DNA from: Telmatospirillum siberiense
GTDB taxonomy: Bacteria > Pseudomonadota > Alphaproteobacteria > Rhodospirillales > Magnetospirillaceae
Direction of reading: 5' to 3'
Assembly (NCBI RefSeq): GCF_002845745.1
Contig: NZ_PIUM01000015.1
Location: 62,001-126,000 of the forward strand
Length of the DNA: 64,000 nucleotides
The notes beneath the pieces are model-generated. The model saw nothing but the letters and a program-made list of their open reading frames with translations. It was not told the origin of the DNA and ran no database searches. Both the position numbers and the translations under genes were made by a program. Below, piece after piece: positions 3,457 through 27,186 of the stretch. Position 1 is the first letter of the stretch. Each line of letters starts with the position of its first letter.

Positions 3457-3472
3457 CCAAAGTCACGCGGGG

Positions 3473-4138: not shown

Positions 4139-5250
4139 GCGCGATCCGTGTTGAGTACCTGGGTCTGCGGCTCATCACCCTGTCGGGCCGCGATATAGCC
4201 GATGGGGAAGACCGTTTCGCCATGGGCTGAGAGAATCTTCATGGTTTCCTCGGCGTCGGAGGCGGCGACCACCGCGATCATGCCGATTCCGCAATTGAAG
4301 ACGCGGCTCAGCTCGTGGCCGTCGATTTTGGCCTGTTCCTTCAGCCAGCCGAAAACCGGAGGCAGCGGCCAACTGCTGGCGTCGATCTCGGCTTTGGCCC
4401 GGGGCGGCAGCACGCGCGGCACGTTTTCCACCAGCCCGCCTCCGGTGATATGGGCGAGCGCCTTGATCTTGCCGGCCTTGATGGCGGCCATGCAGCTTTT
4501 CACATAGATGCGCGTCGGCGTCAGCAGGGCTTCGCCCAGGCTGCGGCCGATGGCGAACGGTGCCGGGTCCGAATAGGCGAGACCGGAGCGTTCGACCACC
4601 TTGCGGACCAGCGAGAAGCCATTGGAATGGACGCCGGTCGAGGCGAGGCCCAGAACGACGTCGCCCGGGGTGACGGCGGATCCGTCGATCAGACGTCCGC
4701 GCTCGGCCGCGCCGACTGAAAAGCCGGCCAAATCGTAGTCGCCCTTGGCGTACATGCCGGGCATTTCGGCGGTTTCGCCGCCGACCAGCGCGCAGCCGGC
4801 CTGGCGGCATCCTTCCGCGATACCGGCGACGATCTGCTTGCCGGCCGCCACGTCCAGCTTGGCCGTCGCGAAATAATCGAGGAACAGCAGGGGTTCCGCC
4901 CCCTGGACGACCAGATCGTTGACACACATGGCGACGAGATCGATGCCGACGGTGTCATGACGTCCGGCATCGATGGCGACCTTGAGCTTGGTGCCGACGC
5001 CGTCGGTGGTGGCGACCAGGATGGGGTCGGCAAAGCCGGCCTCGCGCAGGTCGAACAGGGCGCCAAAACCGCCGAGACCGGCGGTGCTGCCGGAACGGGC
5101 GGTGGATTTGGCAAGCGGCTTGATGGCTTCGACCAGAGCTTCGCCGGCGTCGATGTCGACACCGGCATCCCGATAGGTCAGACCATCGGAGTTCTTTGCG
5201 TCGCTAATGGCTTCCTCGCAGGATTGGCTGCGCCACGCCTTGGCAGGCAA
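4126..5250 (-). CDS. purM: Phosphoribosylformylglycinamidine cyclo-ligase (start uncertain)
   Basis: This enzyme closes the imidazole ring of AIR, step five of purine synthesis, using ATP. It has the family signatures [43 protein letters not shown]-like and [14 protein letters not shown]. The start is unusual. No ATG or GTG precedes the conserved region in frame. A TTG at 5250 has no ribosome site and gives 374 residues. An ATT at 5208 has GAGGAA four bases upstream and gives 360 residues, closer to the family. The coordinate given is the TTG; initiation at 5208 is quite possible. Confidence 0.93.
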
Positions 5251-5447
5251 GGGGCGCAGAATGATGGCCAGGGCGTTGATCGGCCCGAAGATACTTGATC
5301 CGGGATGGTTTTCAATGCTCCTTTCTGCGCGCGCGGGCCAAGCCTGATGTTCTGGTCGGCGTCGTAATGGCTTTTCGCCGCTTGCGATCGTGCTATGGTA
5401 CCGGCGTTATGAACCTGCCTAGACCATCCCATCGGGGACCTTTTCCC

Positions 5448-6575: not shown

Positions 6576-7123
6576 AGGCGCTTCGGCATCTGCCGAACGT
6601 CATTACCCTGTTGCGGCTGGTGGCGGCGCCAGCCGCCTTCTGGCTGATCGGGGTGGGGGAGATGGCCCCGGCCTTTTGGCTGTTCGTCATCGCCGCAGCG
6701 ACGGACGCGGTCGACGGGGCGCTGGCCCGTCTGACCGGAGCGCAGTCGGTGATCGGCAGCTACCTGGATGCCCTGGCCGACAAGGTTCTGTTGGTCGGGA
6801 TCTATCTTTCGCTGGGTTTGCAGGGTTTTTTGGGCGTTTGGCTGGTTTCACTGGTGGTCGGGCGAGACCTGCTGCTGATCGTCTTCGCCGCCGTCTTGCA
6901 TTTTCAGGGTGTCCAAAAGAAGATCGAGCCCCTGCGGATCAGCAAGGTCAATACGTTCGTGCAGATCCTTCTGGCGGCGGTCGTTCTCGGCCATCATGGC
7001 CTGGGATGGTTTCCCGCCGCCGCCGTCGGGCCGCTGTGCGGCATTGTCGCGGTGAGCACGGTTCTGTCGGCCGTGGCCTATCTGGTCGCATGGTGGCCGC
7101 GTCTGCTGTGGTGGAGAGAGTGA
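6572..7123 (+). CDS. CDP-alcohol phosphatidyltransferase family membrane enzyme
   Basis: The 183-residue membrane protein carries the complete CDP-alcohol phosphatidyltransferase motif: D-x2-DG-x2-AR-x8-G-x3-D-x3-D, seen as DAVDGALAR followed by GSYLDALAD. The family joins a CDP-activated lipid to an alcohol such as glycerol phosphate, serine or inositol phosphate. The exact substrate is unknown; the size is PgsA-like, but another pgsA may exist elsewhere. Several hydrophobic segments fill the rest. The GTG at 6572 has GGGA upstream and overlaps the DUF2066 stop codon. Confidence 0.88.
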   Translation: MKALRHLPNVITLLRLVAAPAAFWLIGVGEMAPAFWLFVIAAATDAVDGALARLTGAQSVIGSYLDALADKVLLVGIYLSLGLQGFLGVWLVSLVVGRDLLLIVFAAVLHFQGVQKKIEPLRISKVNTFVQILLAAVVLGHHGLGWFPAAAVGPLCGIVAVSTVLSAVAYLVAWWPRLLWWRE

Positions 7124-7128
7124 AGCGA

Positions 7129-8211
7129 ATGGCGATGTCGCGGGAAAACAAGCTGTGGTTCTGGCTGATCGGCCTGATCGTCTGCTGTCTGCTGCTATAT
7201 TTCCTGCGCGGCATGCTGTTGCCGTTCGTCGCCGGCATGGCCGTGGCCTATCTGCTGGATCCGCTGGCTCGCCGGCTGGAGCGTCTCGGCCTGTCGCGGG
7301 TTTTCGCGACCGTTATCATCACGCTCAGTTTCTTTTTGTGCGTCGTTTTGCTGATCGGCATCGTGGGGCCGCTGGTCGAAGACCAGTTGATCGGTTTCGG
7401 GCACCGCGTCCCCAACTACGTCCATCAACTGATCAATCGCGGCGAACCGGTGTGGCGTGCCGCCAAATCCTATTTGTCGACCAAGGATATCGAGCAGTTG
7501 CGCACCGCCGGCGGCGAATACGCTGGTACTTTGGCAACCTGGGCGGCGGGGATGTTTTCGCGGTTGCTGACCGGTTCCCTGGTGGTGGTCAACCTGCTCT
7601 CGCTGATCTTCATCACGCCGGTGGTGACGTTTTATCTGCTGCGTGATTGGCACGGCGTGACCCAGAGATTCGATTCCTGGCTGCCCCGCGCCCATGCCGA
7701 GACGATTCGCCAGCAATTGCATGAGATCGATACCATCCTCGCCGGCTTCGTCCGCGGCCAGGCGCTGGTCTGTCTGTCTCTGGGAGCCTTCTACGCCCTC
7801 GGCCTGACGGTGGTCGGCCTCGATCTGGGGCTGGTGGTCGGCTTCGCCGCAGGCCTAGGGTCCTTCATTCCCTATCTGGGCACCATCTCGGGCTTTCTCG
7901 TCGGGACGGGGCTGGCCATCGCGCAGTCTCAGGACTGGACTCTGGCGGCCATGGTGGCCGGAGTCTTCGTGGTGGGCAATCTGATGGAGGGCAATATCCT
8001 GGCCCCGAAACTGGTCGGGGAAAAAATCGGGCTGCATCCGGTCTGGGTGATTTTCGCCCTGCTGGCCGGCGGGACGTTGTTCGGTTTTCTGGGGATCCTG
8101 CTGGCGCTGCCCGTCGCCGCCGTCATCGGTGTGCTGACCCGCTTCGGCCTGCGCCGTTATCTCGACAGTTCGCTCTACAGCGGCGAGACGGACGAAGGAA
8201 CCACCCCGTGA
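7129..8211 (+). CDS. AI-2E family transporter (PerM/YhhT-like)
   Basis: This is a 360-residue polytopic membrane protein of the AI-2E transporter (UPF0118) family. Two hydrophobic helices at the N-terminus (residues about 10-50), a third near 65-85, a soluble loop to about 150 and four to five C-terminal helices match the family. The conserved FIPYLGTISGF and EGNILAPKLVGEKIGLHP segments are present. Family members act as autoinducer-2 exporters or as ion/proton antiporters; no substrate can be assigned here. The ATG at 7129 sits nine bases after GGAGAG; a GTG at 7120 overlapping the previous stop is an alternative. Confidence 0.88.
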   Translation: MAMSRENKLWFWLIGLIVCCLLLYFLRGMLLPFVAGMAVAYLLDPLARRLERLGLSRVFATVIITLSFFLCVVLLIGIVGPLVEDQLIGFGHRVPNYVHQLINRGEPVWRAAKSYLSTKDIEQLRTAGGEYAGTLATWAAGMFSRLLTGSLVVVNLLSLIFITPVVTFYLLRDWHGVTQRFDSWLPRAHAETIRQQLHEIDTILAGFVRGQALVCLSLGAFYALGLTVVGLDLGLVVGFAAGLGSFIPYLGTISGFLVGTGLAIAQSQDWTLAAMVAGVFVVGNLMEGNILAPKLVGEKIGLHPVWVIFALLAGGTLFGFLGILLALPVAAVIGVLTRFGLRRYLDSSLYSGETDEGTTP

Positions 8212-8897
8212 CGTCGGCGCCGAAGCAGGTCCCTTTCGACTTCGGACATCAGCCGGGGTTTTCCGCGGTCGATTTCCTGATCGCCGGCAACAACGGCGAT
8301 GCCCACGACTGGATCGCCCGCTGGCCGTCCTGGCCGTCTTTCGCCTTGGGGCTGTGGGGGCCTCCGGGGTGCGGGAAAAGTCATCTCGCCCACATCCACT
8401 GCGAAGCCAGTGCCGGTATCCTGCTGCCGGCACAGGCCTTGACCAAGGACGACGTGCCGACGCTCGCCGATTATCCGTCCGTGGTGGTCGAGGATGCCGA
8501 CCGGGGCGTCGATGAGGCGGCGCTTTTCCATCTGTTCAATCTGCTGCGGGAAAATCGCGGATTTCTGCTGTTGACCGGCCGCGACGCGCCGGCCCGCTGG
8601 AAAATCGCGTTGCCGGATTTGCGGTCGCGGTTGTCGGCCATTCCGGTGGCGGCCATTCGCTCGCCCGAGGACGATTTGCTCGAAGCATTGCTGGTGAAAT
8701 TGTTTTCCGATCGTCAATTGCGCGTCGGCCCGGATGTCCTGGCTTTCATCCTGCCGCGCATGGAGCGGTCCTTCGCGGCGGCACGCGCCCTGGTGGCGGC
8801 CATCGACGAGGCCGCGTTGGCGCAGCGCCGCGAGATCAGCGTGGCCCTGGCGCGGGTGGTGATGGCCGCCACTTCCGCCGATGGAGAGAACTCATGA
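8208..8897 (+). CDS. hdaA: HdaA/DnaA-like replication regulatory ATPase
   Basis: The 229-residue protein resembles the AAA+ part of DnaA without its DNA-binding domain. It has an N-terminal clamp-binding type start (QVPFDFGH), a Walker A motif (GPPGCGKSH), a degenerate Walker B (VVVEDAD) and a LPDLRSRL segment. In alphaproteobacteria such proteins (HdaA in Caulobacter) bind the sliding clamp and inactivate DnaA-ATP to prevent over-initiation. The GTG start overlaps the end of the transporter gene, and the stop overlaps the next ATG, so it is translated within the operon. The symbol is by family and is well supported. Confidence 0.88.
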   Translation: MTSAPKQVPFDFGHQPGFSAVDFLIAGNNGDAHDWIARWPSWPSFALGLWGPPGCGKSHLAHIHCEASAGILLPAQALTKDDVPTLADYPSVVVEDADRGVDEAALFHLFNLLRENRGFLLLTGRDAPARWKIALPDLRSRLSAIPVAAIRSPEDDLLEALLVKLFSDRQLRVGPDVLAFILPRMERSFAAARALVAAIDEAALAQRREISVALARVVMAATSADGENS

Positions 8898-10273
8898 CCG
8901 ATGTCCACGCCAAGAAATCGGCGGCTCTCAACTCGGTTTGGGCCAGTGCCTTCCTGACATTGATCAAACTGGTGGTCGGCCTGTTGACCGGCAGTCTCGG
9001 CATTCTTTCCGAAGCGGCCCATTCATTGCTCGATCTGGGGGCGGCCGGCCTGACTTATTTTGCCGTCCGGGTCAGCGACCAACCGGCCGACAGCCGCCAT
9101 CCCTACGGTCACGGCAAGATCGAAAGCGTCTCGGCTCTGGCCGAAACCGCCCTGTTGTTCCTGACGTCGGCCTGGATCATCCGCGAGGCGGTGATCCGTC
9201 TGCTTTCGGCCGAAGCCCGGGTCGAGGTCACCTGGTATTCGATCGCCGTGGTCCTGGTCTCCATGGCCGTGGACTTCACCCGTTCGCGCGCCTTGATGAA
9301 GGTGGCCAAGGCGACGCGGAGCCAGGCCCTGGAAGCCGACGCGTTGCATTTCAGTTCGGATATCCTGTCTTCGGCGGTGGTGCTGGTCGGCTTGGGATGC
9401 GTGGCCGCCGGCTTCACCAAGGGCGACGCCATCGCCGCCATCGGCGTGTCGCTGTTCGTCCTGCATGTCGGCTACCGCCTCGGCAAGCGGACCATCGAGG
9501 TTCTGATCGATACGGCGCCCGAAGGGGTGGCCGCCGAGGTCGAGAGGATCGCCGCGACCATCGACGATATCGCCAGGGTCGATCGGGTGCGGGCGCGGCC
9601 GGCGGGAACCACCACCTATGTCGAGGTTTTGATCCGTGTCGGGCGCAGCACGCCGCTGGCCCGGGTACAGGACGTCTGCGACACGCTCTCCCTCGCGATC
9701 GCCGGGCGGATGCCGGGGACGGACGCCTTCGTGAAGGCCGAGCCGCTGGCCCTCGACGACGAATCGATCATCGATACGGTGCGGGTCATCGCCAACAAGC
9801 GCCAGGTGATGGTGCACGACATCGTCGTCGAGGCGTTGGAGGGACGCCGTCACGTCAGTTTCGACATCGAGCTCGACGAGACGATGAACATTCACGACGC
9901 CCATGATGTGGCAAGCGGCGCCGAGCAGGCCGTCCGCGAGGAACTGGGCGACGATGTGTTGGTCGAGACGCACATCGATCCGAAGCGGGTCTCCATGCTG
10001 ACCGGCCAGCCCATCGCGGCCGGGGAGCACAGGCGTCTGGAGGCCGAGGTCATTCGGGTTTCCGAGGCGGTCGAGGCGGTCGAGGAGGCGCACGGCGTCC
10101 ATATCCGGCATGGCGAGGATGGACTTTATATCTCTTTACACTGTCTGTTCGATCCGACGACGCCGGTGCGCGTGGCCCATCGCGCGACCGCCATCGTCGA
10201 GCAGCGGATTCGCGAAAAAATCCCCGACGTCGGCCGTGTGGTCGTCCATGCGGAGCCTCTGGGCGAGGAGTAA
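8894..10273 (+). CDS. Cation diffusion facilitator (zinc/iron-type) with extended C-terminus
   Basis: This 459-residue inner-membrane cation/proton antiporter has six predicted helices in the first 210 residues. Two HxxxD metal sites are visible, HSLLD (His43, Asp47) and HFSSD in helix 5, a pattern typical of zinc-transporting members. The cytoplasmic C-terminus is about 250 residues, much longer than the single ~90-residue dimerisation domain of YiiP, and seems to hold two or three tandem copies of that fold (about 205-285, 290-365 and 370-455). Such long CDF proteins exist in alphaproteobacteria. It ends the operon that begins with DUF2066; the ATG overlaps the hdaA stop. Confidence 0.9.
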   Translation: MTDVHAKKSAALNSVWASAFLTLIKLVVGLLTGSLGILSEAAHSLLDLGAAGLTYFAVRVSDQPADSRHPYGHGKIESVSALAETALLFLTSAWIIREAVIRLLSAEARVEVTWYSIAVVLVSMAVDFTRSRALMKVAKATRSQALEADALHFSSDILSSAVVLVGLGCVAAGFTKGDAIAAIGVSLFVLHVGYRLGKRTIEVLIDTAPEGVAAEVERIAATIDDIARVDRVRARPAGTTTYVEVLIRVGRSTPLARVQDVCDTLSLAIAGRMPGTDAFVKAEPLALDDESIIDTVRVIANKRQVMVHDIVVEALEGRRHVSFDIELDETMNIHDAHDVASGAEQAVREELGDDVLVETHIDPKRVSMLTGQPIAAGEHRRLEAEVIRVSEAVEAVEEAHGVHIRHGEDGLYISLHCLFDPTTPVRVAHRATAIVEQRIREKIPDVGRVVVHAEPLGEE

Positions 10274-10280
10274 GCCGCCC

Positions 10281-10805
10281 TCATTCGGCAGGGTCGAGAT
10301 CCCGGGGGCGGATGAAGGCTTCGAGGGTGCAGGTCCCATCCTTCAGGAGGGGCCACTCCTCGATCGGAGCGGACAGGCTGACCAGTCCGCCGGTGGGAAA
10401 TTTCTCGGCCAGCCGTGGTCTTTCCGGATTTTCCCGTCCCGGATCGCTGAGGGCGAGGGCCAATTGCTGCAATCCGGGATTATGCCCGATCAGCAGGACC
10501 GACAGGCATCGTCGGGGAAGTTCGGCCAGCAGGGCGTGCAACGTCATCGGCGCGGCATCGTAAAGCCGCCGATCGCAAGTCACGGGGACGTCGTGGAACG
10601 ACGCCCGGAGCGCATCGAGCGTCTGGCGGGTCCGTTTCGCGGGCGAGCAGAGCACGATGTCGGGCCGGATCCGCTGCCGGCGGAAATAGTCGGCCAGCAA
10701 GACCGCGGTTTTATGGCCGCGTTTGTTGAGCGGTCGTTCGAAATCGTCGATATCGGGGTCGTCCCAACTGGATTTCGCATGGCGAAGGAGATGGATCAGC
10801 TTCAT
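10281..10805 (-). CDS. sixA: SixA-like histidine phosphatase
   Basis: This 174-residue member of the histidine phosphatase superfamily has the catalytic RHAKSSWDD motif with His9, and a second conserved His in LLIGHNPGLQQL. SixA proteins dephosphorylate phosphohistidine on Hpt domains or on PTS proteins. It converges on the CDF gene with only 7 bp between stops and is divergent from ppk1. The ATG at 10805 has AGAAGG upstream; a longer frame is open but shows no similarity. Confidence 0.88.
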   Translation of the reverse strand: MKLIHLLRHAKSSWDDPDIDDFERPLNKRGHKTAVLLADYFRRQRIRPDIVLCSPAKRTRQTLDALRASFHDVPVTCDRRLYDAAPMTLHALLAELPRRCLSVLLIGHNPGLQQLALALSDPGRENPERPRLAEKFPTGGLVSLSAPIEEWPLLKDGTCTLEAFIRPRDLDPAE

Positions 10806-10928
10806 GGACCAAACCTTCTGCTGTTTTTTGTTAAGTGCGGATGACAGATCGGGCCTCTCCATGACATCGACGTTCCAAGCATATATAAATGAGCAAGGCG
10901 AAACTATGTCCCGGACGGGAGAGCCCTG
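10806..10928. promoter_or_regulatory. Divergent promoter region of sixA and ppk1
   Basis: The 123-bp gap contains an AT-rich stretch on the + strand around 10880 (TATATAAAT) that would serve as a -10 region for ppk1. No convincing -35 or operator was seen. Confidence 0.35.
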
Positions 10929-13115
10929 GTGAACGATACCGAATTTGTGGAAACAGCCCCGGAAACCCCGGTGGAGACTTTGGCCCCCCGGCCGATCGGC
11001 ATGCACGACACGGAGCGCTTCATCAATCGCGAGCTGTCCTGGCTGTCCTTCAATACGCGGGTTTTGGAGGAAGCCGACAATCTGAACCATCCCTTGTTGG
11101 AGCGGGTGCGGTTCCTGTCCATCTCGGCGGCCAATCTCGATGAATTCTATATGGTCCGCGTCGCCGGCCTCAAGGGGCAGGTGGAAAACGGCGTCATCAA
11201 TGCGAGCCAGGACGGTCTGACGCCGGCCCAGCAACTGGTGGCGATCAACAGGGAGGCCGGTTTGCTGCTCGACAAGCAGCAGGATTGCTGGCGCGGGCTG
11301 CGCGGCGAATTGCGCACCAACGGAATCGCCGTGATCGATATTTCGGAATTGACCCGGGTCGACCGCAAGTGGCTCGACACCCGGTTCATGGAGCATGTCT
11401 TTCCGGTGCTGACGCCGCTGGCGGTCGATCCGGCCCATCCGTTCCCCTTCATTCCCAATCTCGGCTTCGCCATGGTGCTGCATCTTACCCGTCTGGACGA
11501 CGGTGAGGTGATGCGCGCCTTGCTGCCGCTGCCGCATCAGATCCAGCGTTTCGTCCGTCTGCCGGGAGACGATATCCGGTTCCTGCCCATCGAAGACATG
11601 GTCGGGTTGTTCCTCGACCGGCTCTTCCCCGGCTTCCGGGTCGATGGTCTTGGCGTGTTCCGCGTCATTCGCGATTCCGAAATGGAAATCGACGAGGAGG
11701 CCGAGGATCTGGTGCGCGTTTTCGAATCGGCCTTGAAGCGCCGCCGCCGTGGGCATTGCATCCGCCTGACGGTGAACGGAAGCATGCCGGAGGATCTGCT
11801 TGCCCTGATCATGCAGGACATGCAACTGGTTCCGTCCGACGTCTTCCCGCTGGACGGCCTGATCGGTACCGTCGACATCAAGCAACTCATCATCGATGAG
11901 CGTCCCGACCTTCAGTTCCCGCCCTACAATGCCCGCTTTCCCGAACGGGTCCGCGATTTCGGAGGCGATTGCTTCGCCGCCATCAACAAAAAGGACATCC
12001 TGGTCCACCATCCCTTCGAAAGCTTCGACGTGGTGGTGCAATTCCTTCGCCAGGCGGCGCGGGATCCGAACGTGGTGGCGATCAAGCAGACCCTTTATCG
12101 CACCAGCAAGGACAGTCCCATCGTCAAGGCCCTGGTCGAGGCGGCCGAGATGGGGAAATCGGTCACCGCGATGATCGAGTTGAAGGCCCGTTTCGACGAG
12201 GAGGCCAATATCGGCTGGGCTCGCGATCTGGAGCGGGCCGGGGCTCAGGTGGTCTACGGTTTCCTCGAACTGAAGACGCATGCCAAGATCTCGCTGGTGG
12301 TGCGTCGCGAGGGGGGGGGCTTGCGGTCCTATGTGCATTTCGGGACCGGCAATTACCATCCGATCACTGCGAAGATCTACACGGATCTGAGCTTTTTCAC
12401 CACCGATCCGGCGCTTTGCCGCGACGCCAACCGAACTTTCAATTTCATGACCGGTTACGCCCGGCCGGAAAAGATGGAAAAGCTGGCCATCGCCCCCCTG
12501 ATGCTCCGCGACCGCCTGTTGGCATGCATCGACGCGGAAATCGAAAACGCCAAGGCCGGCCGGCCGGCCGCCATTTGGGCCAAAATGAATTCCCTGGTCG
12601 ATTCCAAATTGATCGATGCGCTTTATCGAGCCTCGCAGGCCGGCGTGCCGATCGACCTGGTCATCCGCGGCATTTGCTGCCTGCGGCCGGGGGTGGCCGG
12701 ACTGTCGGAAAACATCCGGGTCAAGAGCATCGTCGGACGGTTCCTCGAACATGGCCGCGTCGTCTGCTTCGGCAACGGCCATCGGTTGCCGTCCCGGCAT
12801 GCCAAGATTTACATTTCCTCGGCCGATTGGATGACCCGCAATATGGATTGGCGCGTCGAATCGCTGGTGCCGATCGAAAATCCGACGGTGCAACGCCAAA
12901 TCCTCGAGCAGATCATGGCGGCCAATCTGAAGGACAATGTGCAAAGCTGGGTCTTGGGCCCGGACGGCAATTACGTTCGCGTCACGCCGCCGTCCGATGA
13001 AAAGCCGTTCAGCGCGCATACCTATTTCATGACCAATCCCAGCCTGTCCGGACGGGGCAGCGCCTTGGAACGCGGGCGCCCCTTGCCCAAGCTGGTCTTG
13101 AGAGGTCTCGCTTAA
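10929..13115 (+). CDS. ppk1: Polyphosphate kinase 1
   Basis: The 728-residue enzyme polymerises the gamma phosphate of ATP into inorganic polyphosphate, reversibly. It has the PPK1 N-terminal segment ([19 protein letters not shown]), the middle domain, and C-terminal phospholipase-D-like domains with the autophosphorylated histidine region ([14 protein letters not shown], then [11 protein letters not shown]) and the second histidine motif [17 protein letters not shown]. Length fits the family. The GTG start has GGAGA seven bases upstream. ppx follows after 3 bp, giving a synthesis/degradation pair in one operon. Confidence 0.97.
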
Positions 13116-14855: not shown

Positions 14856-16133
14856 ATGTCCGGAATCAGATTGAGCCGTCGGGCCTTGTTGGCCGGAGTC
14901 GCGGCGGCAGCCGTTTCGATGTCTTTCGGGGAATGGGCCCTGGCCGCCGAACAAACCGCCGAATGGGGGTGGCCGCTTCCCTATGAGCACATTTCCGAGA
15001 AGTCTATCGCCTGGCTCAAGGAAAAGGGCTGGTGGCCGCTGTCCCTCGGCTATCAGCCGCCGTGGACGGGGCACAACGCGCTCAATATCGTCGCCGATCG
15101 TCAGCAATTGCTGCAGAAGCGCGGTCTGGACGCCAAATTCGTGGCGTTCGAGGCCGGTCCGCCGCTGATCGAAGCTTTCACCGCCGGGCGGATCCAGGTC
15201 GGCGGCACCGGCAATTTTCCCTATCTTTCCCTGATCGATCGCAAGGTGCCGGCCAAGGGTATCATCAACTATTCCCTGCTGACCCACGGCGTGGTGGTGC
15301 CCAACGACAGCCCCTTCAAGACGCTGAAGGATCTGAAAGGCGCGGCGACGCCGCACACCATCGGTATCGTTACAGGATCGTCCGCGGAATTCTATTTCCA
15401 GGCCGCCGCCGTCGCCAACGGGCTTGAGATCGGCAAGGACGTCATCCTCAAGAACATCCCCTTGTCCGAGCAGCTGCAATTGCCCAAGGGCGTTGCCGCC
15501 GTCGTCCCGTGGGATCATACCCTGTCCCTGTTGACAGATTCCCGCAAGACCGGGCGCCTGATCGATTCCAGCCACGCTTACAGCATTTACGAGGGAATCG
15601 GTTTCGTCCGGCAGGAGTTGATCGACAACGCCCCCGACGTGGTGCAGGCGATCACTGACGCCTTCGTCGAAGCGGCCCTGTGGTTGCGTCTCAAGCCCAC
15701 CGAGGCTGTGGAGCTGTTGAAGCAGGATCCCGCGCTGAAGACGCTTGACGATGCCTTCCTGGCGGCGCAGATCGCCAACAACAACAACCTCTTCAAGCCG
15801 ACGGCATTGATTCCGTTGCCGAAATTCTGGGCGGCGGAGGATCGTCGCGTCCGTGCCTGGTTGAAGGACCGCAATCGCCTGACCCGCGATATCGGCGAGG
15901 AGGAATATGCGGCGACCTATGCTCCGGATTTTGCCGCCAATACGGCTCGGAAGCTGGGGTGGAAGGTGCCGGAACGTCCCGTATTCCTGCCGGAAGGTTG
16001 GACCGGGGTGATCGGAACCGTTCCCTATCCGGCCTACTTCAATCAGACCACGGCCAAGGGACCGCAGCCGTTCCCCGAAAAGGGCGATCTGGTCAAGCCC
16101 TGGAGCTTTGGCGGAACGAGCTATCAGCCGTGA
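14856..16133 (+). CDS. Tat-exported ABC substrate-binding protein, TauA/NitT-like
   Basis: The 425-residue periplasmic binding protein starts with a twin-arginine signal (LSRRALLAGVAAAAVSM) and an Ala-x-Ala cleavage region, so it is probably exported folded. The mature part is of the nitrate/sulfonate/taurine (NMT1/TauA) class, longer than SsuA. A GGAG site lies upstream of the ATG. The next two genes encode the matching permease and ATPase. Its place in a sulfonate-degradation block suggests an organosulfonate ligand such as taurine, isethionate or sulfoacetate, but nitrate- or pyrimidine-type ligands also occur in this class. Confidence 0.85.
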   Translation: MSGIRLSRRALLAGVAAAAVSMSFGEWALAAEQTAEWGWPLPYEHISEKSIAWLKEKGWWPLSLGYQPPWTGHNALNIVADRQQLLQKRGLDAKFVAFEAGPPLIEAFTAGRIQVGGTGNFPYLSLIDRKVPAKGIINYSLLTHGVVVPNDSPFKTLKDLKGAATPHTIGIVTGSSAEFYFQAAAVANGLEIGKDVILKNIPLSEQLQLPKGVAAVVPWDHTLSLLTDSRKTGRLIDSSHAYSIYEGIGFVRQELIDNAPDVVQAITDAFVEAALWLRLKPTEAVELLKQDPALKTLDDAFLAAQIANNNNLFKPTALIPLPKFWAAEDRRVRAWLKDRNRLTRDIGEEEYAATYAPDFAANTARKLGWKVPERPVFLPEGWTGVIGTVPYPAYFNQTTAKGPQPFPEKGDLVKPWSFGGTSYQP

Positions 16134-16963
16134 GAAGCGCAGCCATAGCCGAGGCGACCATCCCGATGGCCCCGCCGGTCACCCGCACCGCCGCCTTCGG
16201 GCGGCGGTTGCGGCCGTTCGCCTTTCTGGCGACCCTGGTCGCCGCCTGGGAGCTCGTCTGTCGTTTCTGGCTGCCCGTTCTCGACCCGCAGTTCTCCATC
16301 CTATTGCCCAGTCCGTCGGTCCTTCTGCTCACCGCCGGAAAGATGATCGCCACGGGTGAGTTGCTGCACCATCTGGCCGATAGCCTCAGGCGCGAGGCCA
16401 TCGCCTTCCTGTTGGCGCTGGTGGCCGTGCCTGTCGGCATCGGCATGGGATGGTGGCGCGGTCTGCACGAACAGCTTTATCCCGTGTTCGAAATCCTGCG
16501 TCCGATCCCGCCCCTGGCTTGGATACCGCTCAGCATCCTGTGGTTTGGCCTGGGCGATGTGCAGAACGAATTCATCATCTTTCTCGGCATGGTGTTCCCC
16601 ATCCTGCTGAACACCGTGGCCGGGGTGCGCCAGGTCGACCGCAATCTGATCCGCGCCGCGCGCTCGCTGGGGGCGGGGCAGGCGGCGCTGTTGCGCCGGG
16701 TGGTTCTGAAGGCGGCCTTGCCGCAGATCGTCATCGGCCTCAGGGTCGGCCTGGGCTTCGGATGGATGGCCCTGGTGGCGGCGGAACTGGTGGGGGCCAA
16801 TTCCGGCTTGGGCTTCCTGATCAACGATGCGCGTTCGCTGCTGCGCACCGACATCGTGATCGTGGGCATGCTGGCCATCGGCATTACCGGTCTGATCATC
16901 GATCTCGCCCTGCGGCGTTTGGCCCGAGGGCTGCTTCCCTGGTCTCGCGAGTTACGGGGGTAG
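16130..16963 (+). CDS. ABC transporter permease, TauC/SsuC-like
   Basis: The 277-residue inner-membrane permease has about six hydrophobic helices and the binding-protein-dependent transport signature (AARSLGAGQAALLRRVVLKAALP). It belongs to the nitrate/taurine/sulfonate permease group. The chosen GTG overlaps the previous stop (GTGA); an ATG at 16166 is an alternative with a weak GAGG site. It works with the flanking binding protein and ATPase. Confidence 0.88.
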   Translation: MRSAAIAEATIPMAPPVTRTAAFGRRLRPFAFLATLVAAWELVCRFWLPVLDPQFSILLPSPSVLLLTAGKMIATGELLHHLADSLRREAIAFLLALVAVPVGIGMGWWRGLHEQLYPVFEILRPIPPLAWIPLSILWFGLGDVQNEFIIFLGMVFPILLNTVAGVRQVDRNLIRAARSLGAGQAALLRRVVLKAALPQIVIGLRVGLGFGWMALVAAELVGANSGLGFLINDARSLLRTDIVIVGMLAIGITGLIIDLALRRLARGLLPWSRELRG

Positions 16964-16965
16964 CC

Positions 16966-17715
16966 ATGGGTCATCTTTCTTTCAATGGCGTCAGCAAGGT
17001 CTATGACGATCGAGGCGCCCCCGTCACCGCCCTGGCCAATGTGACGTTCGACATCGCCGATGGGGAGTTCTGCGCCATCCTCGGTCATTCCGGTTGCGGC
17101 AAGACCACCCTGCTCAATATGGTCGCGGGTTTCGAAACCCCGACCGGCGGGGCGATCTCCCTGGATGGCAGGGCCGTCGCCGGTCCGGGATGGGACCGCA
17201 CGATGATCTTCCAGGACTACGCGTTGTTTCCCTGGGCGACGGTGCGCGAAAACATCGCCTTCGGGCTGGAAATGAAGAAGGTTCCCGCAGCGGAGCGTAC
17301 CGAGATCATCGACCACCATGTCGATCTGGTCGGCCTTTCCGGTTTCGCCGACCGTTATCCCGACGAGTTGTCGGGCGGCATGCGCCAGCGCGTCGCCATT
17401 GCCCGGGCGCTGGCGGTCAGTCCGCGAGTTCTTCTGATGGATGAGCCGTTCGCCGCGCTGGACGACCAGAACCGCCGTTCCATGCAGAACGAACTGGTTC
17501 GCATCTGGCGGCGGGAACCGAAGACGGTGATGCTCGTCACCCATTCCATCGACGAGGCGATTCTGCTGGCCGACTATGTGGTGGTCTTAAGCAGCCGTCC
17601 GGGGCGGATCAAGCAGGTGGTCCCGATCCGTCTCGACCGTCCGCGTGACGAGGACGATCCCGATTATCTGGCCCTCAAACGCCAACTGCGGGGGCTTATC
17701 CATGATGGAGAGTAA
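16966..17715 (+). CDS. ABC transporter ATP-binding protein, TauB/SsuB-like
   Basis: The 249-residue ATPase has Walker A (GHSGCGKTT), the signature LSGGMRQRVAIARAL, Walker B (VLLMDEPFAALDD) and the switch histidine (VTHSIDEA). It belongs to the nitrate/sulfonate/taurine class and energises the upstream permease. A GGGGG site lies close to the ATG, 3 bp after the permease stop. It converges on islB. Confidence 0.92.
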   Translation: MGHLSFNGVSKVYDDRGAPVTALANVTFDIADGEFCAILGHSGCGKTTLLNMVAGFETPTGGAISLDGRAVAGPGWDRTMIFQDYALFPWATVRENIAFGLEMKKVPAAERTEIIDHHVDLVGLSGFADRYPDELSGGMRQRVAIARALAVSPRVLLMDEPFAALDDQNRRSMQNELVRIWRREPKTVMLVTHSIDEAILLADYVVVLSSRPGRIKQVVPIRLDRPRDEDDPDYLALKRQLRGLIHDGE

Positions 17716-17792: not shown

Positions 17793-17832
17793 TAAGCGCC
17801 CGTTGATTCGATAATTTATCAACGGGCGCTTA
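17793..17832. terminator. 15-bp perfect hairpin between two convergent operons
   Basis: Arms 17793-17807 and 17818-17832 are exact reverse complements with a 10-nt AT-rich loop. The islB stop codon lies inside the right arm. There is no T-tract on either strand. Its place between convergent genes suggests a bidirectional terminator. Confidence 0.6.
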
Positions 17833-18759
17833 CTCCGCTTGCCGATTGCCGGCGGCGAAATTCCGCAGTTCCTCGAATTTCCGGTTGTCCAGCCGGGCAT
17901 CGCCCATCGGGAAGTCCCGGTCGAGGAAGGCGTATTTCTGCGCTCCCAGACGATGATAGGGCAGAAGTTCGTAGGTGACGTGCGGAAATGGCCGGATGAA
18001 GTCGAGGATGGCGGCAATGTCGTCCCGGCTGTCGTTGACCCCCGGAATGACCGGGGTACGGACCCGGACGGCCAGCCGGGGAAACTCCGTCAGCAGCCGG
18101 CGCAGATTATCGGTGATCAGCCGGTTGTCCACGCCGGTCTGCTCCTTGTGCTTCACCGGGTCCATCACCTTGAGATCGAAGAACAATTCCCGCAACAACC
18201 CGCAGGCCCGGGACAGGGCGGTCCAGGAGACATGGCCGCAGGTTTCCATGGCGCAATCCACATGCCGGCGCGCGGCCTCCCGCAGCAGGGCGAGGGCGAA
18301 TGCCGGTTGCGTCAGCGGTTCTCCCCCCGACAGGGTCATGCCGCCCTCCGAGCGGGAATAGAACGGAGAATCCTTTTCGACGGCGTCGAGGACCTGGCGC
18401 GCCGTCCGCACCGAGCCGTAAGGCTGCATGGCTTGCGCCGGACAGGTGGCGGCACAGGCCATGCAGTCGCGGCAAATCCCCCGGTCCACCACGGGGGCGC
18501 CGGCTTCAGGGAGGCCGAGCGCCCCATTCGCGCAGATCTCCTTGCAGTAATCGCAGATCTCGACGCCGAGGCATCGTCCGGCATTCCGGGCCAGTTCGGG
18601 ATGCGGCCCCTGCGATTCCGGATTGCTGCACCATCGGCACCGCAATGGGCAGCCTTTCAGGAACACGACGGTCCGGATGCCCTGCCCGTCATGCACCGAA
18701 TAGCGCTGGATGTTGAAGACGACGCCGCTTTCCTCGCGGTCGGGCTGGTCCATATCCAT
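17830..18759 (-). CDS. islB: Isethionate sulfite-lyase activating enzyme (radical SAM)
   Basis: The 309-residue glycyl-radical activase makes the glycyl radical on its partner using S-adenosylmethionine. It has the radical-SAM cluster motif CPLRCRWC (Cys37, 41, 44), a ferredoxin-like insert with two further Cys sets (63/69/72/76 and 96/99/102/106) for auxiliary 4Fe-4S clusters, and the SGGEPL motif. It is the last gene of the - strand operon, 3 bp after islA, as expected for a dedicated activase. The partner assignment rests on this adjacency and on the clear identity of islA. Both proteins need anaerobic conditions. Confidence 0.9.
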   Translation of the reverse strand: MDMDQPDREESGVVFNIQRYSVHDGQGIRTVVFLKGCPLRCRWCSNPESQGPHPELARNAGRCLGVEICDYCKEICANGALGLPEAGAPVVDRGICRDCMACAATCPAQAMQPYGSVRTARQVLDAVEKDSPFYSRSEGGMTLSGGEPLTQPAFALALLREAARRHVDCAMETCGHVSWTALSRACGLLRELFFDLKVMDPVKHKEQTGVDNRLITDNLRRLLTEFPRLAVRVRTPVIPGVNDSRDDIAAILDFIRPFPHVTYELLPYHRLGAQKYAFLDRDFPMGDARLDNRKFEELRNFAAGNRQAE

Positions 18760-18762
18760 TCT

Positions 18763-21255
18763 TCACAAGGTGTCGTGGGCCGTGCGGGCGATCAGGTCGT
18801 TCTGCAAATCGGGTGACAGATCGACGAAATAGGCGCTGTAGCCGGCGATCCGCACGATCAGGCTTCGGTATTTCTCCGGCTCGCGCTGGGCCGCCAGCAG
18901 GGTCTCCCTGTTCACCACATTGAATTGCACATGCCAGAGCTTGAGATCGCAGAAGGTTCGGATCAGAGACACCAGTTTGCGGGTCCCCTCGGTTCCCTCC
19001 AGGCATTTGGGGGTGAATTTGATATTCAAGAGTCGCGCCGCTCTTTCGCGGAAGCCATGGTTTTTCGTCTCGTAGTTGGACAGCAGGATGGCGGTGGGAC
19101 CATTGACGTCGGCCCCGTGGGACGCCGAGGAGCCATCCGAAAGCGGGGTGAAGGCCTTGCGCCCGTTGGGGGTGGCGCTGACCACTTTTCCGAAGGGGAC
19201 GTGCGAGGTGAAGGGGACATAGCGGATGTCGTTGTGGATCCCCAGTTCCCGTGAATATTTCCGGGCGTAATCGACGAAGACGCGATCGATGTCGAGGGCG
19301 ATCCGGTCTGCGTAAGGATCGTTGTTACCGTAGCAGGGCGCCGACCTCAGCAGGCGGCGCAAAGGTTCCCTGCCTTCGAAGTCGGTCTTCAGCGCCTCGA
19401 TCAGCTCCGTCGTCGAGACCTTTTTGTCCTCGAAGACCAGCTTCTTGATCGCGGCGAGCGAATCGACCACGGTGCCGAAGCCGATGCATTCGAAGTAGCC
19501 GAGGTTGATGCCGTCGGGGATCTGCGGCGTATGCAAATCGAGGCAATGCTTCATGCAGAGATCATGCAGGGCCGATCCCATGGGCTGGGCGAAATGGCGT
19601 GCGCGCAAGGCGCAGACGATATGCTGCTGGGTGAACGCCGCCTTGCAGAACAAGAGCTGCTGGCGCTTGTAGGCCTCCCACAGTTCCTCCCAGGTTTCGA
19701 ATGTGGCGGGATCACCGGTTTCCAGTCCCAGCGGGCGATCGCCGTATTTCAACATGCGGCCGTTGAACAGGGTCATTTCCAGGGCGGCGGCGAAATTCAC
19801 ATAGGCTCCGCCCGAGGTATAGGTGTCGCGGTTAGGCATGCGGGCTTCCGAGCAGCCGGAGACGGCGTAGTCGTAGGCCTCTTCGAAGGTCGCGCCTTTC
19901 GATACGTAAAGCGGCACCACCTCCTCGTCGTTGATCAGCTTGGGAAAACCCGATCCCTCCTTGATGGTTTCGGCGACTTCCCACAGGAAGCGCTGGGGCG
20001 AGCGGGAGTGGATGCGGGCCGCCAGATCCGGGTAATGCAGGGGAAATTCCCGTTTTGACTTGAGGAACAGATAGGAGAGCTCGTTGGTGGCGTCGCGTCC
20101 GTCACGGGTCTGGCCGCCGATGGTGACCGCCTCCCAGTGGGCATAGCCTTCGTTGAAGGCGCCGCCGGCCGGCGAAATGTAGAGATCGACGAATTGGGCC
20201 AGCCCCACCCACATGCATTCGATCAGTTCCAGCGCCCGATCCTCGGTCAGGACACCCCTTTCGATATCGGCCTTGAAATAGGGATAGAGATACTGGTCCA
20301 TCCGGCCGTTCGAAATGATGGTTCCTGTCTTTTGTTCCAGCCTGGAGAACATCTGGGTGAACCACTGGCTCTGCACCGCCTCCTGAAAGCTGCGCGCCGG
20401 CCGTTCCGGCACCCATTCGCAGATCTCGGCCAACTCCAGCAGTTCCTTACGTCTTTGCGGATCGGATTCGGCCAGGGCCTGTTCGCGGGCCAGGGCGGCG
20501 TGGCGCTGGGCCCAATGGACGATGGCGTCGGCAATGATGACCACCGCCTGCAGGAACGGCTTCTTTTCCACCTCGTCCCGGGGGCTCAAGGGGTCGAGCG
20601 CCGCCAGGCGTGCCTCCGCCTCGTGACGGATGTCGCCGAATCCCCGCGTCAGGACCTTCTCGTAGTCGTGCACCCATTGGATCGAGGATCGGAAGGACGA
20701 GGTTTCGTTGACGATGAACCGTGAGATCAGTCCTTCCGGGTCGTCATAGGTCAGCTTGTGGATATCGGGCGGCAGGGCGGCGTTCAGCGCCTCGTGGTAG
20801 GTTTTCCCCTTCCAGTAGGGGGCGATTTCCTCGACGACGATTTGCACCTCGTCGGCGGTGATGCCGAAAGGCGCTCCCACCCGATGGGGCAGTTCGGCCA
20901 CAGCCTGGTCGAGGAAGTCTCCGTCCAGTTCCGGATAAAGGATTCCGTAGCGTCCGGGTTTTCCCACGCGGCCGGCCAGCAACTGGTGGTCGTCGATATA
21001 GACGGTGATATTGGCGGCGATGTGCTGCAGGGCCTTCGCCCAGCGCAGGACCAGGGGCTGCCCCTCGGTCTCCTTGAACGACTGGGTGAAATAAAGAGCC
21101 CGCTCGACGTCGATCGAGGGGCGGCTTGCCTCGAATTCGTCCAGGATGGTGAACGCCCGGGAGTGGGACTGGCGAAAGCGATCCTCCTTCCCGTCGATTC
21201 GGTCCTTGATCCGTTGTTCGTGGGGCGACAGCGTTTCGCAGCAATCCAGGGTCAC
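18763..21255 (-). CDS. islA: Isethionate sulfite-lyase (glycyl radical enzyme)
   Basis: This 830-residue glycyl radical enzyme cleaves the C-S bond of isethionate to give sulfite and acetaldehyde. Counting from the GTG at 21255 (GGGAGA seven bases upstream), the radical glycine is G805 in [10 protein letters not shown], the thiyl cysteine is C468 and the general base is E470 in [14 protein letters not shown]. Residues I recall as substrate-binding in the Bilophila wadsworthia enzyme fall at identical numbers: R189 and Q193 (FRSSIQW), W374 (YAHW), R678 and F682 (IRYVPF). The length is also the same. This separates it from pyruvate formate-lyase, choline lyase and diol dehydratase. It lies in an operon with its activase and a sulfonate importer. 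The open frame continues upstream into the ligase gene, but that part is an out-of-frame shadow. Confidence 0.94.
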
Positions 21256-21269
21256 GGCTCGTTCTCCCG

Positions 21270-22865
21270 TCAGGAAAGGTGGCGTCGGTCCGTCCCGGCG
21301 GACCGCGTGGGGTGGGGGTGGCCGGCGCCTTGCAGGAGCCGCAGGCGTTGCACCTTGCCTGACGGACCCTTGGGCAGTTCGGTCATGATTCTGATGACGC
21401 GGGGCGTTTTGAAACGGCCCAACCGATCCTCGCAGAAGATCTTGAGTTCCTCTTCGGTCGCCGTCATTCCCGGCTTGAGGACCACGCCCGCCTCGATTTC
21501 CTGTCCGTAGAGCGGATCGGGAACGCCGACGGCGGCGGCCTCCAGCAGGGCGGGGTGTTTCAGCAATGTCTCGTCGATTTCGCGCGGAGCGATGTTTTCG
21601 CCCCCCTTGATGATCAGTTCCTTGAGCCGGCCGGTGACGAAATAGAACCCTTCGTCGTCGCGATAGCCGAGATCGCCGGTCTTCAGCCAGCCGTCGGCGG
21701 TGAAGGCGGACGCCGTTTCGGCCGGATCCTTGTGGTATCCGCTCATCACATTGGGGCCCGAGATCTGGATTTCGCCCACCATGCCGGCCGGTTGGGGCCG
21801 CTCGGTGCCGGGGGCGGCGATCCGGGCCAGGTTGCCGAACGCCCGGCCCGGGCTGCCGATCTTGCGCAAGGCCGGATTCAGCGGATTGGTGAACACGGGG
21901 GCCGCCGTTTCGGTCAGTCCCATGGTCTCGATGATGCCGATGCCGAAGCGCTGTTCGAAGGCCCGATGATGTTCGGGCGCCAGCGGCGCCGAAGCGGAGC
22001 GGCAGAACCGCACCGCTCCGAGATCCAGGTCGGCGCGCAGGTTCTCCTCGCCGTTCAGCAGATAGGCGATGATGGTCGGTACCACATTGAGCCAGGTGCA
22101 GCGGTGTTCGGCCGCCAGCGACCAGAAGCGTCCCGCGCTGAAGCGGCGCGGCATCACCAGGCTGCCTCCGTGGTATAGAGGGGCGAGAACGGTCACGATC
22201 TGGGCGTTGATGTGGTAAAGCGGAAGCACCGCCAGCACCCGGTCGGACGGTCCCAGCCCGTGGGCCTGGCTGACGAAACGGGCCCCGGATAGCACGTTTC
22301 CGTGGCTGAGACGGACCCCCTTGGGTCGGCCGGTGGTGCCGGAGGTATACATCAGAAGGGCGTTCGAACCGTTGGCGGGCGCCGCCAACGGCCACGCCGC
22401 ATCGGGCGTCCCGGCGCCGTCGTCGCTCCCGCACTCGGCATCGATCACGCGGACGGCGACGGCGCCGGGAATGGGAAGCCGCGCCAGCGCCTGTTCCAAT
22501 TCCCTCCTGTGCTCGGTGGTGGTGAACACCAGCCGGCAATCCGAATGTGTCAGAACGAACGCCAATGGCTCCGGTTGCAGGAGCAGGCTGAGGGGGGTGG
22601 CGACGCACCCGGCGGCCATGATGCCGACGAACAGGCCGGCGGCCTGCAAGCCGTTGGGCAGGAACAATCCCACCCGGTCCCCCCGCTGGATGCCGAGGCC
22701 GGCCAAATCCCTCGCCAAGGTCAGGCATCGCCCGTGCAACTCTCCAAAGGTCAGGGTGCTGCCGGTCTCGGGGGCGATCAGATAAACGGCCTCCGGCGTC
22801 TCAATGGCCCGCCTGGTTACCAAGTCGCGCACCGTCGGGGCGGAATCGGAGAAATCAGCGGCCAT
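21270..22865 (-). CDS. AMP-forming acyl-CoA ligase, possible sulfoacetate-CoA ligase (SauT-like)
   Basis: The 531-residue enzyme belongs to the acyl-adenylate (ANL) superfamily. It shows the phosphate loop [12 protein letters not shown], the adenine motif [11 protein letters not shown], the hinge [12 protein letters not shown] and [14 protein letters not shown], and the C-terminal catalytic Lys in PSGKVQRL. It would join a carboxylate to CoA. In Cupriavidus the pair SauT (ligase) and SauS (dehydrogenase) handles sulfoacetate, and this gene follows directly after a SauS-like gene. Acetate or another short acid is an alternative substrate. The ATG at 22865 overlaps the upstream gene by 11 bp; a GTG at 22901 with an AGGA site is another possible start. 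islA begins 14 bp after its stop. Confidence 0.82.
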
Positions 22866-24264
22866 AGCGTTGCCAATAGTCATGAAAGATGGTCTCGACA
22901 CCCACGGTCCTGGGGGGAATTGGCCGCACGATGCGGGTGACGTTCAGGAAATGGAGGTAATTCAGGTTTTCCGAGAATCCGTTGCCGCCCCAGGTGCCGC
23001 AGCCCATGGACAGAGAAAAGGGCAGGCCGTTGTCGAATGAGCCGCCGGTGGCGATGCAATGGGGCTGGTCGACGATCACCCGGCAGACCGGCAATTCCAG
23101 GCCGAGCCTTAAGATCTGTTCGGGCGTGGCGCCGTGCACGCCGACCGAATGTCCCTTTCCCTGATAGTCGTAGATGGCTCGCACCTGGGCGAGGCCGGCG
23201 TCGAAATCGGGGACATGGTAAATCGTCAGGACGGGGCTCAGTTTTTCTCCCGAGAACGGCCGGTCCGGGCCCGCCGTGCCGGAGGGTTCCTCCACCATGA
23301 TGAAGCGGCAGCTGTCGAATCCGTTGCGTTCCAGGCCGGCCAACCGCGCAAGCCGGGGGGCGGTCTGGGCGACGAAAGCCGGATTCAGCTTGCCGTCCGG
23401 GAACATGGCGGCCTCCAAGGCGGCCTTTTCCCCGGGGGTGGCGAGAATGCCTCCTTCCTTCTCGAGACAAGATAGCAAGGGAGGCCATATGTCGCCGATG
23501 ACCACCAGGCTGTTTTCCGACGAACAGCTGGTGGCGTTGTCGAAGGTTTTGGAAAGGGCGATATGCGTTGCCGTTCGGGCCGGATCGGCCTCTGCGGCGA
23601 CAATGACCGCCGCATTGCCCACCCCGACCCCGAGGGCTGGTGTGCCGCTGGAGTAAGCGGCGCGGACGTTGGCCCGCGACCCGGTGGCGACCACCAGATT
23701 GGCCTGACGCATCAATTCGAGCGTTTGCGCCTTGGTGGCCGGCGGCGGCAACATCTGGACGAGGTCGGCCGAAACGCCGACCTTTGCCAGTTCCCGGTGG
23801 ATGAACCCGAGCAGCGTGGCGCAAACCCCGGCCCCCTTCGGCGAGGGAGCCAGGATGATGGCGTTGCGGCCCTTCAGCGCGTTGATGATGTTGTTGGCCG
23901 GCGTTGCCGCCGGATTGGTCGAGGGCGTGATGGCCGCCACCACGCCCACCGGATTGGCGATTTCGGTGATGCCGGTGGCGGGATCGTCGCGAATCACCCC
24001 GACCGACGGCGTGCCGCGCAAATCCCCAAGCAGGCCCAGCGTCTTGCGGTGGTTTTTGCGGATCTTGTCGGCCACGTTGCCGAGCCCGGTCTCGCGCACC
24101 GCCTGTTCGGCCAGGATACGGTTTCTGTCGGGATCCAGGATGGCCCAGCCGGCGGCGGCGACCGCCAGGTCGACCTTTTCCTGATCGTTCCGGGCGTATT
24201 GCCGCTGCGCGTTCCGCGCCCGCGCGATCAGGGCCTGCACGGTACGCTCTTCCTCGCCGCTCAT
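22855..24264 (-). CDS. CoA-acylating aldehyde dehydrogenase, (sulfo)acetaldehyde type (SauS-like)
   Basis: The 469-residue enzyme resembles CoA-acylating acetaldehyde dehydrogenases, interconverting an aldehyde and its acyl-CoA with NAD(P). The catalytic Cys247 lies in [17 protein letters not shown]. The nucleotide-binding [12 protein letters not shown] segment and a C-terminal [18 protein letters not shown] segment are present; from memory, these resemble SauS sulfoacetaldehyde dehydrogenase more than AdhE or EutE. It could oxidise acetaldehyde from islA to acetyl-CoA, or reduce sulfoacetyl-CoA made by the ligase. No encapsulation signal or microcompartment shell gene is seen. ATG overlaps the ssuB stop (ATGA). 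Confidence 0.86.
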
Positions 24265-26894: not shown

Positions 26895-27186
26895 CACTCA
26901 CCTTTCATGTAGAAAACCATCAAAATGGCAATTTTTTTTGTGAAATAAGTCGCCTGATGTTTCCGCGTGTTCGTTCCAACCGTCGGAAATTTTCACCCGA
27001 ATGAATCGAAGGCGGGAAACGCTATCCCATATTGCCTATGCAGTCCACCGGCTAATAAGTTTATTGGAATATATAACATTTATTTATTGTTATATATGGG
27101 TATGCCATTTCCCGGAGCGGGGTTGACCCGCTCGGCCGGCGGAGGCGCATGGATCGATAGGGAGTGGGGTCGGGGCTCGGCCCGGC
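26895..27186 (-). promoter_or_regulatory. Upstream region of the ssu-isl operon, with an AT-rich inverted repeat
   Basis: This 292-bp region holds no gene. It should contain the promoter of the seven-gene operon. A 10-bp perfect inverted repeat of A and T-rich sequence lies at 27069-27078 and 27088-27097 (ATATATAACA and complement), inside an AT-rich patch at 27050-27100; it could be an operator or a border structure. No clear FNR box or sigma-54 site was found. Confidence 0.45.

Follow-up and report, generated by a model that had tools for sequence, protein, structure and literature searches.

A proposed sulfoacetate uptake and desulfonation operon around an isethionate sulfite-lyase gene of Telmatospirillum siberiense

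Isethionate sulfite-lyase (IslA) is a glycyl radical enzyme that is best known as the sulfite supplier of sulfide-producing respirers. A gene for this enzyme, followed by that of its activase (islB), lies in a 64,000-nucleotide stretch of the genome of the alphaproteobacterium Telmatospirillum siberiense (NZ_PIUM01000015.1, positions 62,001 to 126,000; hereafter the window). T. siberiense 26-4b1 is a cultured facultative anaerobe from peat. Its genome paper reports a partial sox set and no dsr genes except dsrEFH, and islA is unmentioned (PMC5786683). What does IslA do in a facultative anaerobe with no DsrA above the model cut-off, which sulfonate feeds it, and where does the sulfite go?

The neighborhood of islAB suggests an answer. 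Seven minus-strand genes, ssuA-ssuC-ssuB-sauS-sauT-islA-islB, run from approximately 27.1 to 17.8 kb of the window and overlap or lie no more than 14 bp apart (Table 1). These genes would be co-transcribed as one operon, and it is likely that this operon serves the uptake of sulfoacetate and its anoxic C-S cleavage. An earlier note, made from the letters of this DNA, had read islAB as enzyme and activase. That reading stands, though the note overlooked the adjoining ssuACB-sauS-sauT genes.

Identity of the glycyl radical enzyme

The window protein has PFL-like and Gly_radical domains with the catalytic residues Cys468, Glu470, and Gly805. In a search of solved structures, the best match was 5YMR (1479 bits), deposited under the name formate acetyltransferase and presumably the D. 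vulgaris IslA. It was followed by the isethionate sulfite-lyase 7KQ3 of Bilophila wadsworthia (1383 bits), by 6LON (1210 bits), which we take to be HpsG, and by choline trimethylamine-lyase (554 bits). The window protein is identical to 5YMR at 616/805 positions (77%), to 7KQ3 at 576/824 (70%), and to 6LON at 513/819 (63%).

The earlier note had named the enzyme from eight active-site residues (R189, Q193, W374, C468, E470, R678, F682, and G805), and each of them stands at its stated number. The protein is also as long as B. wadsworthia IslA (830 amino acids), as the note had said, and the two numberings coincide because a one-residue shift at the start is cancelled by the lack of one residue near position 98. 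All eight residues are found in the window and in the 80 reference loci, except in the truncated L061, which ends before G805. Distant glycyl radical enzymes (L010, L102, L104-L106, L108-L114; 29-38% identical) retain two to four of the eight. Because the residues are kept across the reference loci and mostly lost in the distant enzymes, the match is not due to chance.

Taken alone, the residue list is not diagnostic of an IslA, and this part of the earlier argument fell. A passage in PMC8473560 describes R189, Q193, R678, and W374 as IslA-specific, with these residues unconserved in other glycyl radical enzymes and the Trp found in IslA only. The letters of 6LON are at odds with this claim. 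HpsG 6LON has seven of the eight residues (R189, Q193, W374, C468, E470, R678, and G805) and Ile at position 682, and since R189, Q193, R678, and W374 are among those shared, the list cannot tell the two enzymes apart. At position 312, the window has Thr and 6LON has Ala.

The identification is instead carried by sequence identity, signature positions, and a tree. As signature positions, we took the 15 that are fixed (≥97%) across the 80 IslA references and at which two HpsG rows differ from them. The window matches IslA at 14 of these, matches HpsG at none, and has another state at one. The main tree was made by a quick method, with support from the Shimodaira-Hasegawa-like approximate likelihood ratio test (SH-aLRT), from 45 rows chosen from 101 aligned sequences. 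The earlier note had proposed an alignment and tree as a check, and in this tree the window falls with both crystallized IslAs in a 24-row set (SH-aLRT 99) that leaves 6LON outside. The set includes 11 rows labeled Desulfovibrionaceae and 4 labeled Planctomycetaceae. Within it, the window, a Rhodospirillaceae metagenome-assembled genome (MAG; L011, 86% identical), and an Acetobacteraceae MAG (L012, 83%) form one set with a support of 100, and a Desulfovibrio sp. (L013) stands next to them with a support of 97. The labels of these nearest relatives agree with the alphaproteobacterial origin that the earlier note had seen. The four MAGs labeled Planctomycetaceae that carry IslA (L018, L021, L037, and L073) form a branch of their own, with a support of 100.

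Two observations speak against the IslA assignment. FastTree gives a support of just 0.72 to the 60-row node that joins the window to the solved IslAs, though 6LON is not inside that node. Moreover, NCBIfam names the window enzyme HpsG (NF048011, 1564 bits; cut-off, 1000), the sulfite-lyase of sulfopropanediol (DHPS). HpsG and IslA have most of their active-site residues in common, and a statement in PMC13219744 ascribes isethionate cleavage to both. The label carries no weight, however, because NF048011 fails to separate IslA from the HpsG branch: three Desulfovibrionaceae IslAs score 1507-1579 bits, and one protein of the 6LON branch scores 1509. Two of those three (L034 and L054), as well as L070, group with the solved IslAs in the 45-row tree. 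All five IslA or HpsG-branch proteins scanned pass NF048011, and both Desulfovibrio-type IslBs scanned pass the HpsH model NF048010. Public annotation therefore probably mislabels IslA proteins as DHPS enzymes. The tree, F682, T312, the 14 of 15 signature positions, and the match of the adjoining genes to sulfoacetate genes all point away from HpsG. An HpsG identity was rejected on the tree position and the absence of any HpsG signature state, and it is highly improbable that the enzyme is a DHPS lyase or a lyase of some other sulfonate. Judged by identity, tree, and signature positions, the window enzyme is an isethionate sulfite-lyase.

The islB gene begins 3 bp past the islA stop, which is the spacing given in the earlier note, and its product matches NF048010 (433.8 bits; cut-off, 430) and TIGR02494 (313.9 bits; cut-off, 174.35). 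It has a CX3CX2C motif at residue 37, accompanied by further clustered cysteines.

The window pair resembles the Desulfovibrio-type and B. wadsworthia IslA-IslB (5YMR and 7KQ3) in its enzyme and activase, active-site residues, length, and gene adjacency. The hosts differ. Those studied in PMC6386719 respire the sulfite by Dsr, whereas T. siberiense is a facultative anaerobe with no DsrA above the cut-off. The accompanying genes differ as well: according to the same paper, Desulfovibrio carries tripartite ATP-independent periplasmic (TRAP) transporter genes and Bilophila a separate taurine cluster, whereas the window has an Ssu-type ATP-binding cassette (ABC) transporter and no bacterial microcompartment (BMC) genes at the locus. 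HpsG/HpsH shares the fold and most active-site residues with the window enzyme and is set apart by the identity of 63%, Ile for Phe682, Ala for Thr312, and a separate branch.

IslA is rare among relatives of T. siberiense, in line with the earlier note's view that the gene lies outside its usual holders. Within the family, 2 of 55 genomes have a match, that of T. siberiense included, and the 4 further genomes of the genus gave none (E ≤ 1e-100); among 385 sampled genomes of the class, only that of T. siberiense has one (E ≤ 1e-200). Peck 2019 lists IslA in Deltaproteobacteria, Clostridia, Negativicutes, several Gammaproteobacteria, and Bacteroidetes, a list without Alphaproteobacteria (PMC6386719). 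The terms alphaproteobacteria, sulfoacetate, and assimilation are absent from the main text of Xing 2019 in a term search (PMC6453916).

Other glycyl radical enzymes were noticed alongside IslA. T. siberiense has a second one, a CutC-like protein on contig C11 (L010, 1468-3834, plus strand) that scores 747 bits against a CutC cut-off of 1050. It has Val aligned to the catalytic Glu470. L102 shares its states at the nine sites, and those of L104 are nearly the same. In the genome behind the Desulfovibrio sp. An276 locus L070 (G440), a 44%-identical relative of IslA and HpsG (L107) has Ser at Cys468 and Phe at R678. It lies 4.2 kb from another relative, L103, on the same contig.

Predicted sulfoacetate genes adjoining islAB

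SauS bears on the question of the substrate. The window protein scores 691.4 bits on the SauS model NF047625 (cut-off, 600) and 271 bits on the acetaldehyde dehydrogenase model TIGR02518 (cut-off, 620.1). For a control, we scored aldehyde dehydrogenases from within 8 kb of islA elsewhere over their matched stretches, in four of the five other loci with such a match (the fifth is L066). These score 605-645 bits on the acetaldehyde model, two of the four above 620, and 324-375 bits on the SauS model. Since the scores are reversed, the window sauS is not the counterpart of the islA-linked aldehyde dehydrogenases found elsewhere, and its product is unlikely to be an acetaldehyde dehydrogenase. The AMP-forming ligase gene that adjoins sauS is assigned as a putative sauT.

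Homologs of SauS with more than 50% identity were found near islA in only L011 and L012 among the 80 loci, and five more loci have matches of 32-36%; these counts are lower bounds because many contigs are short. L011 repeats the window order of sauS, sauT, and islA and includes the first part of islB after them. L012 has islA-islB divergent from SauS (743 bits), a ligase pair, and SsuABC homologs (1198-7312, minus strand, and 8001-11524, plus strand). The L012 ligase consists of two ADP-forming subunits of the succinyl-CoA synthetase type that, at 299 and 292 bits, miss the succinate-model cut-offs of 370 and 336. Within the class, 26 of 385 genomes have a SauS relative, that of T. siberiense included. 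Among 19 other alphaproteobacterial SauS loci, nine have a SauT-type ligase beside SauS (one partly aligned), eight have the SauCD type, and two have neither within the available DNA. In a SauS tree, made by a quick method that flagged L156 and L158, both distant, for long branches, the window, L011, and all nine SauT-linked rows form one set with a support of 98. L012, the eight SauCD-linked rows, and the two undecided rows lie outside this set.

This gene order suggests that IslAs of a single clade became joined to two different sulfoacetate-activation cassettes with unrelated ligases. The supply of sulfoacetaldehyde would be the sense that both cassettes share, and this is the strongest argument for the pathway. 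In L011, a TauD-like dioxygenase gene (273-1217, plus strand; 206 bits; cut-off, 313) lies immediately upstream of sauS-sauT-islA and may be an oxic partner of the anoxic route.

The proposed pathway has five steps that lead to sulfite. The Ssu-type ABC transporter would import sulfoacetate, and SauT with ATP would convert it to sulfoacetyl-CoA. SauS would then reduce sulfoacetyl-CoA to sulfoacetaldehyde, and a reductase presumably encoded outside the operon would reduce sulfoacetaldehyde to isethionate. Finally, IslB would install the glycyl radical on IslA, and IslA would split isethionate into acetaldehyde and sulfite. In T. siberiense, these reactions are deduced from the gene content.

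In an alternative reading, the operon is for isethionate from outside the cell, or for a mixture of C2 sulfonates. IslA would then be the main step, with SauS acting on its acetaldehyde product and the ligase on acetate or in an accessory role. Isethionate is the IslA substrate in the characterized cases considered, and some other genomes have acetaldehyde dehydrogenase genes near islA. The window enzyme nevertheless scores as SauS, and two types of ligase, found beside SauS in 17 of the 19 other alphaproteobacterial loci, would have no clear role if isethionate were the substrate. Because ssuACB-sauS-sauT adjoin islAB, sulfoacetate is the likelier imported substrate, and the isethionate reading is considered unlikely.

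Several points weigh against the sulfoacetate pathway. No sulfoacetaldehyde reductase was found among the 40 window open reading frames scanned with Pfam, which are not all of those in the window. In the genome, the SarD model (NF050025) reaches 233 bits at best against a cut-off of 700 among eight of the nine iron-type alcohol dehydrogenases; no search covered other reductase families, such as the short-chain dehydrogenase/reductase type of IsfD. B. wadsworthia likewise encodes SarD away from islA, according to PMC6386719. The SauT-like ligase reaches no cut-off among the 25 of 103 families listed, so its substrate is assigned by adjacency. The substrate range of SsuABC is not predictable, and SsuB and one SsuA model fall under their cut-offs (for SsuA, NF008588 gives 256 bits against 299). 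In addition, no sigma-70-type site came out of the promoter scan, and no sign of regulation by sulfur starvation or anoxia was seen.

The chemistry proposed for the window is the same as that of B. wadsworthia, in which sulfoacetate is converted through SauCD, SauS, and TauF to isethionate, and by IseG to sulfite, as summarized in a review citing Liu 2023 (PMC12890257). The two differ in activation and import: the ligase is of the AMP-forming SauT type in the window and is the ADP-forming SauCD in B. wadsworthia, and an Ssu-type importer takes the place of SauXYZ, described as a tripartite tricarboxylate transporter (TTT; PMC12625764). Unlike in B. wadsworthia, the genes for import, activation, and cleavage adjoin, and the sulfite reductase genes are assimilatory, not respiratory.

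In Cupriavidus necator, sulfoacetaldehyde goes to Xsc. The window differs in that IslA would be the C-S cleaving enzyme, and no Xsc was found above the cut-off. The pair of SauS and a SauT-type ligase for sulfoacetate is shared with sauST of C. necator H16 (Weinitschke 2010, as cited in PMC12625764), where the transporter is SauU of the major facilitator superfamily and not an Ssu-type ABC transporter. The same source treats the two gene sets, sauST (C. necator) and sauSCD (B. wadsworthia), together and reports that sponge symbionts, too, have genes of both kinds, along with TTT transporters. The route proposed here joins AMP-type activation to a radical lyase. The grouping of its genes with a sulfonate importer in one proposed operon is unlike the arrangement described in the sulfide-producing bacteria in which IslA was discovered. 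No description of this combination was found in the open-access literature searched.

Probable fate of the sulfite

Sulfite respiration was rejected because no DsrA was found above the cut-off. In the T. siberiense genome, the DsrA model reaches 50 bits at best against a cut-off of 392.85 (DsrB was not searched). Together with the dsr content given in the genome paper, this bears out the earlier note's remark that the host has a different lifestyle from the usual IslA holders. The Xsc route for sulfoacetaldehyde was also rejected: the best match is 306 bits against a cut-off of 676, and the model gives sub-cut-off matches in 14 of 14 control genomes as well.

No CysI proper was found above the cut-off in the genome. 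On contig C80, the gene of a NIR_SIR protein precedes those of two proteins with PAPS-reductase domains, which we read as CysH and CysD, and of a CysNC-type fusion. A CysA-type ATPase is encoded further upstream. Because CysH, CysD, and CysNC-type genes adjoin it, the NIR_SIR protein is taken to be an assimilatory sulfite reductase. The sulfite released by IslA would mainly enter this enzyme, and acetaldehyde would be converted to acetyl-CoA or ethanol.

Sulfur assimilation is favored because of the assimilatory cluster on C80 and the Ssu-type transporter, and sulfur scavenging is the preferred use of the operon over other uses. A fuller scenario is more tentative, and we place it somewhat below an even chance. 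The operon would be an anoxic sulfur-scavenging system and an oxygen-independent counterpart of SsuD/TauD, drawing on two alphaproteobacterial kinds of cassette and on islAB acquired from Desulfovibrionaceae-like bacteria. It would bring sulfonate sulfur to cysteine in peat, in a host with no DsrA above the cut-off.

Steps 1 to 5 could instead be used more for carbon or for electron disposal than for sulfur, which is a serious contender against scavenging, though one we would bet against by a little. The two uses may coexist. The sauST genes are the sulfoacetate degradation cluster of C. necator, where sulfoacetate is described as a source of carbon and energy (PMC12625764). Acetaldehyde is convertible to acetyl-CoA, and the T. 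siberiense genome paper lists mixed acid fermentation (PMC5786683). Against such a use stand the absence of DsrA or Xsc above cut-off (sulfite oxidases were not searched), the Ssu-type transporter with an ATP-costly ligase, and the presence of assimilatory sulfite reductase genes. A role in energy metabolism is mildly disfavored because the AMP-forming ligase step costs ATP. If the scavenging reading is true, desulfonation of sulfoacetate in anoxic soils need not end in sulfide respiration. The cultured type strain, apparently DSM 18240, is ready for a direct test.

Boundaries of the proposed operon and neighboring genes

Table 1. Features of the proposed operon in the window
Feature	Coordinates	Strand	Evidence or position
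islB, radical-SAM (S-adenosylmethionine) glycyl radical activase, 309 aa	17830-18759	-	Hidden Markov model matches, Radical_SAM domain, CX3CX2C
islA, isethionate sulfite-lyase (glycyl radical enzyme), 830 aa + stop, GTG start	18763-21255	-	Alignment, tree, signature positions
sauT-like AMP-forming CoA ligase	21270-22883	-	AMP-binding and AMP-binding_C (Pfam), 11-residue motif
sauS, predicted CoA-acylating sulfoacetaldehyde dehydrogenase, 469 aa	22855-24264	-	NF047625 score, control scan, SauS tree
ssuB-like sulfonate ABC transporter ATPase, 262 aa	24261-25049	-	NF008420, 364 bits (cut-off 395 missed); best of 171 families
ssuC-like sulfonate ABC transporter permease, 290 aa	25051-25923	-	NF008470, 363 bits (cut-off 347)
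ssuA-family sulfonate-binding protein, 325 aa	25920-26897	-	TIGR01728, 219.5 bits (cut-off 163.5)
Perfect 10-bp inverted repeat, 9-nt spacer, AT-rich, ATATATAACA-N9-TGTTATATAT	27069-27097		Upstream of ssuA; candidate operator
Perfect 15-bp inverted repeat, 10-nt loop	17793-17832		Overlaps islB stop; putative 3' operon boundary

For sauT, an ATG start at 22883 or 22865 is preferred over a GTG at 22901. The terminator scan accepts loops of 3-8 and did not report the 15-bp repeat at the end of the operon. For the repeat upstream of ssuA, the window gave 1 match where 0.01 would be expected. For its core with 7-bp arms, the genome holds no other perfect copy and one site with one mismatch. A regulon behind this palindrome was rejected, given the lack of a second perfect copy and a reversed control pattern that also matched once. 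No regulator gene was seen among the scanned genes adjoining the operon. Base composition gives no clear signal of recent transfer, with a G+C content of 61.3% in islA and 63.5% in the window.

Judged by Pfam domains, the closest neighbors of the operon are rnd and aspS to one side; to the other, they are a plus-strand sulfonate-type ABC transporter, ppx, and ppk. This second transporter, of the sulfonate/taurine type (14856-17715, plus strand), is convergent with the operon and consists of an SsuA-like binding protein, a TauC-like permease, and an ATPase. Its proteins all fall under the cut-offs of the models listed, and no obvious enzyme adjoins it.

A microcompartment at the islA locus was considered and rejected, as all 9 BMC matches are on contig C5 and the window is on C6. 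The C5 cluster (L162 and L163) holds a diol dehydratase large subunit and a reactivase. A PduT homolog in the Bilophila IslA cluster has a T. siberiense protein as its closest relative (PMC8667426).

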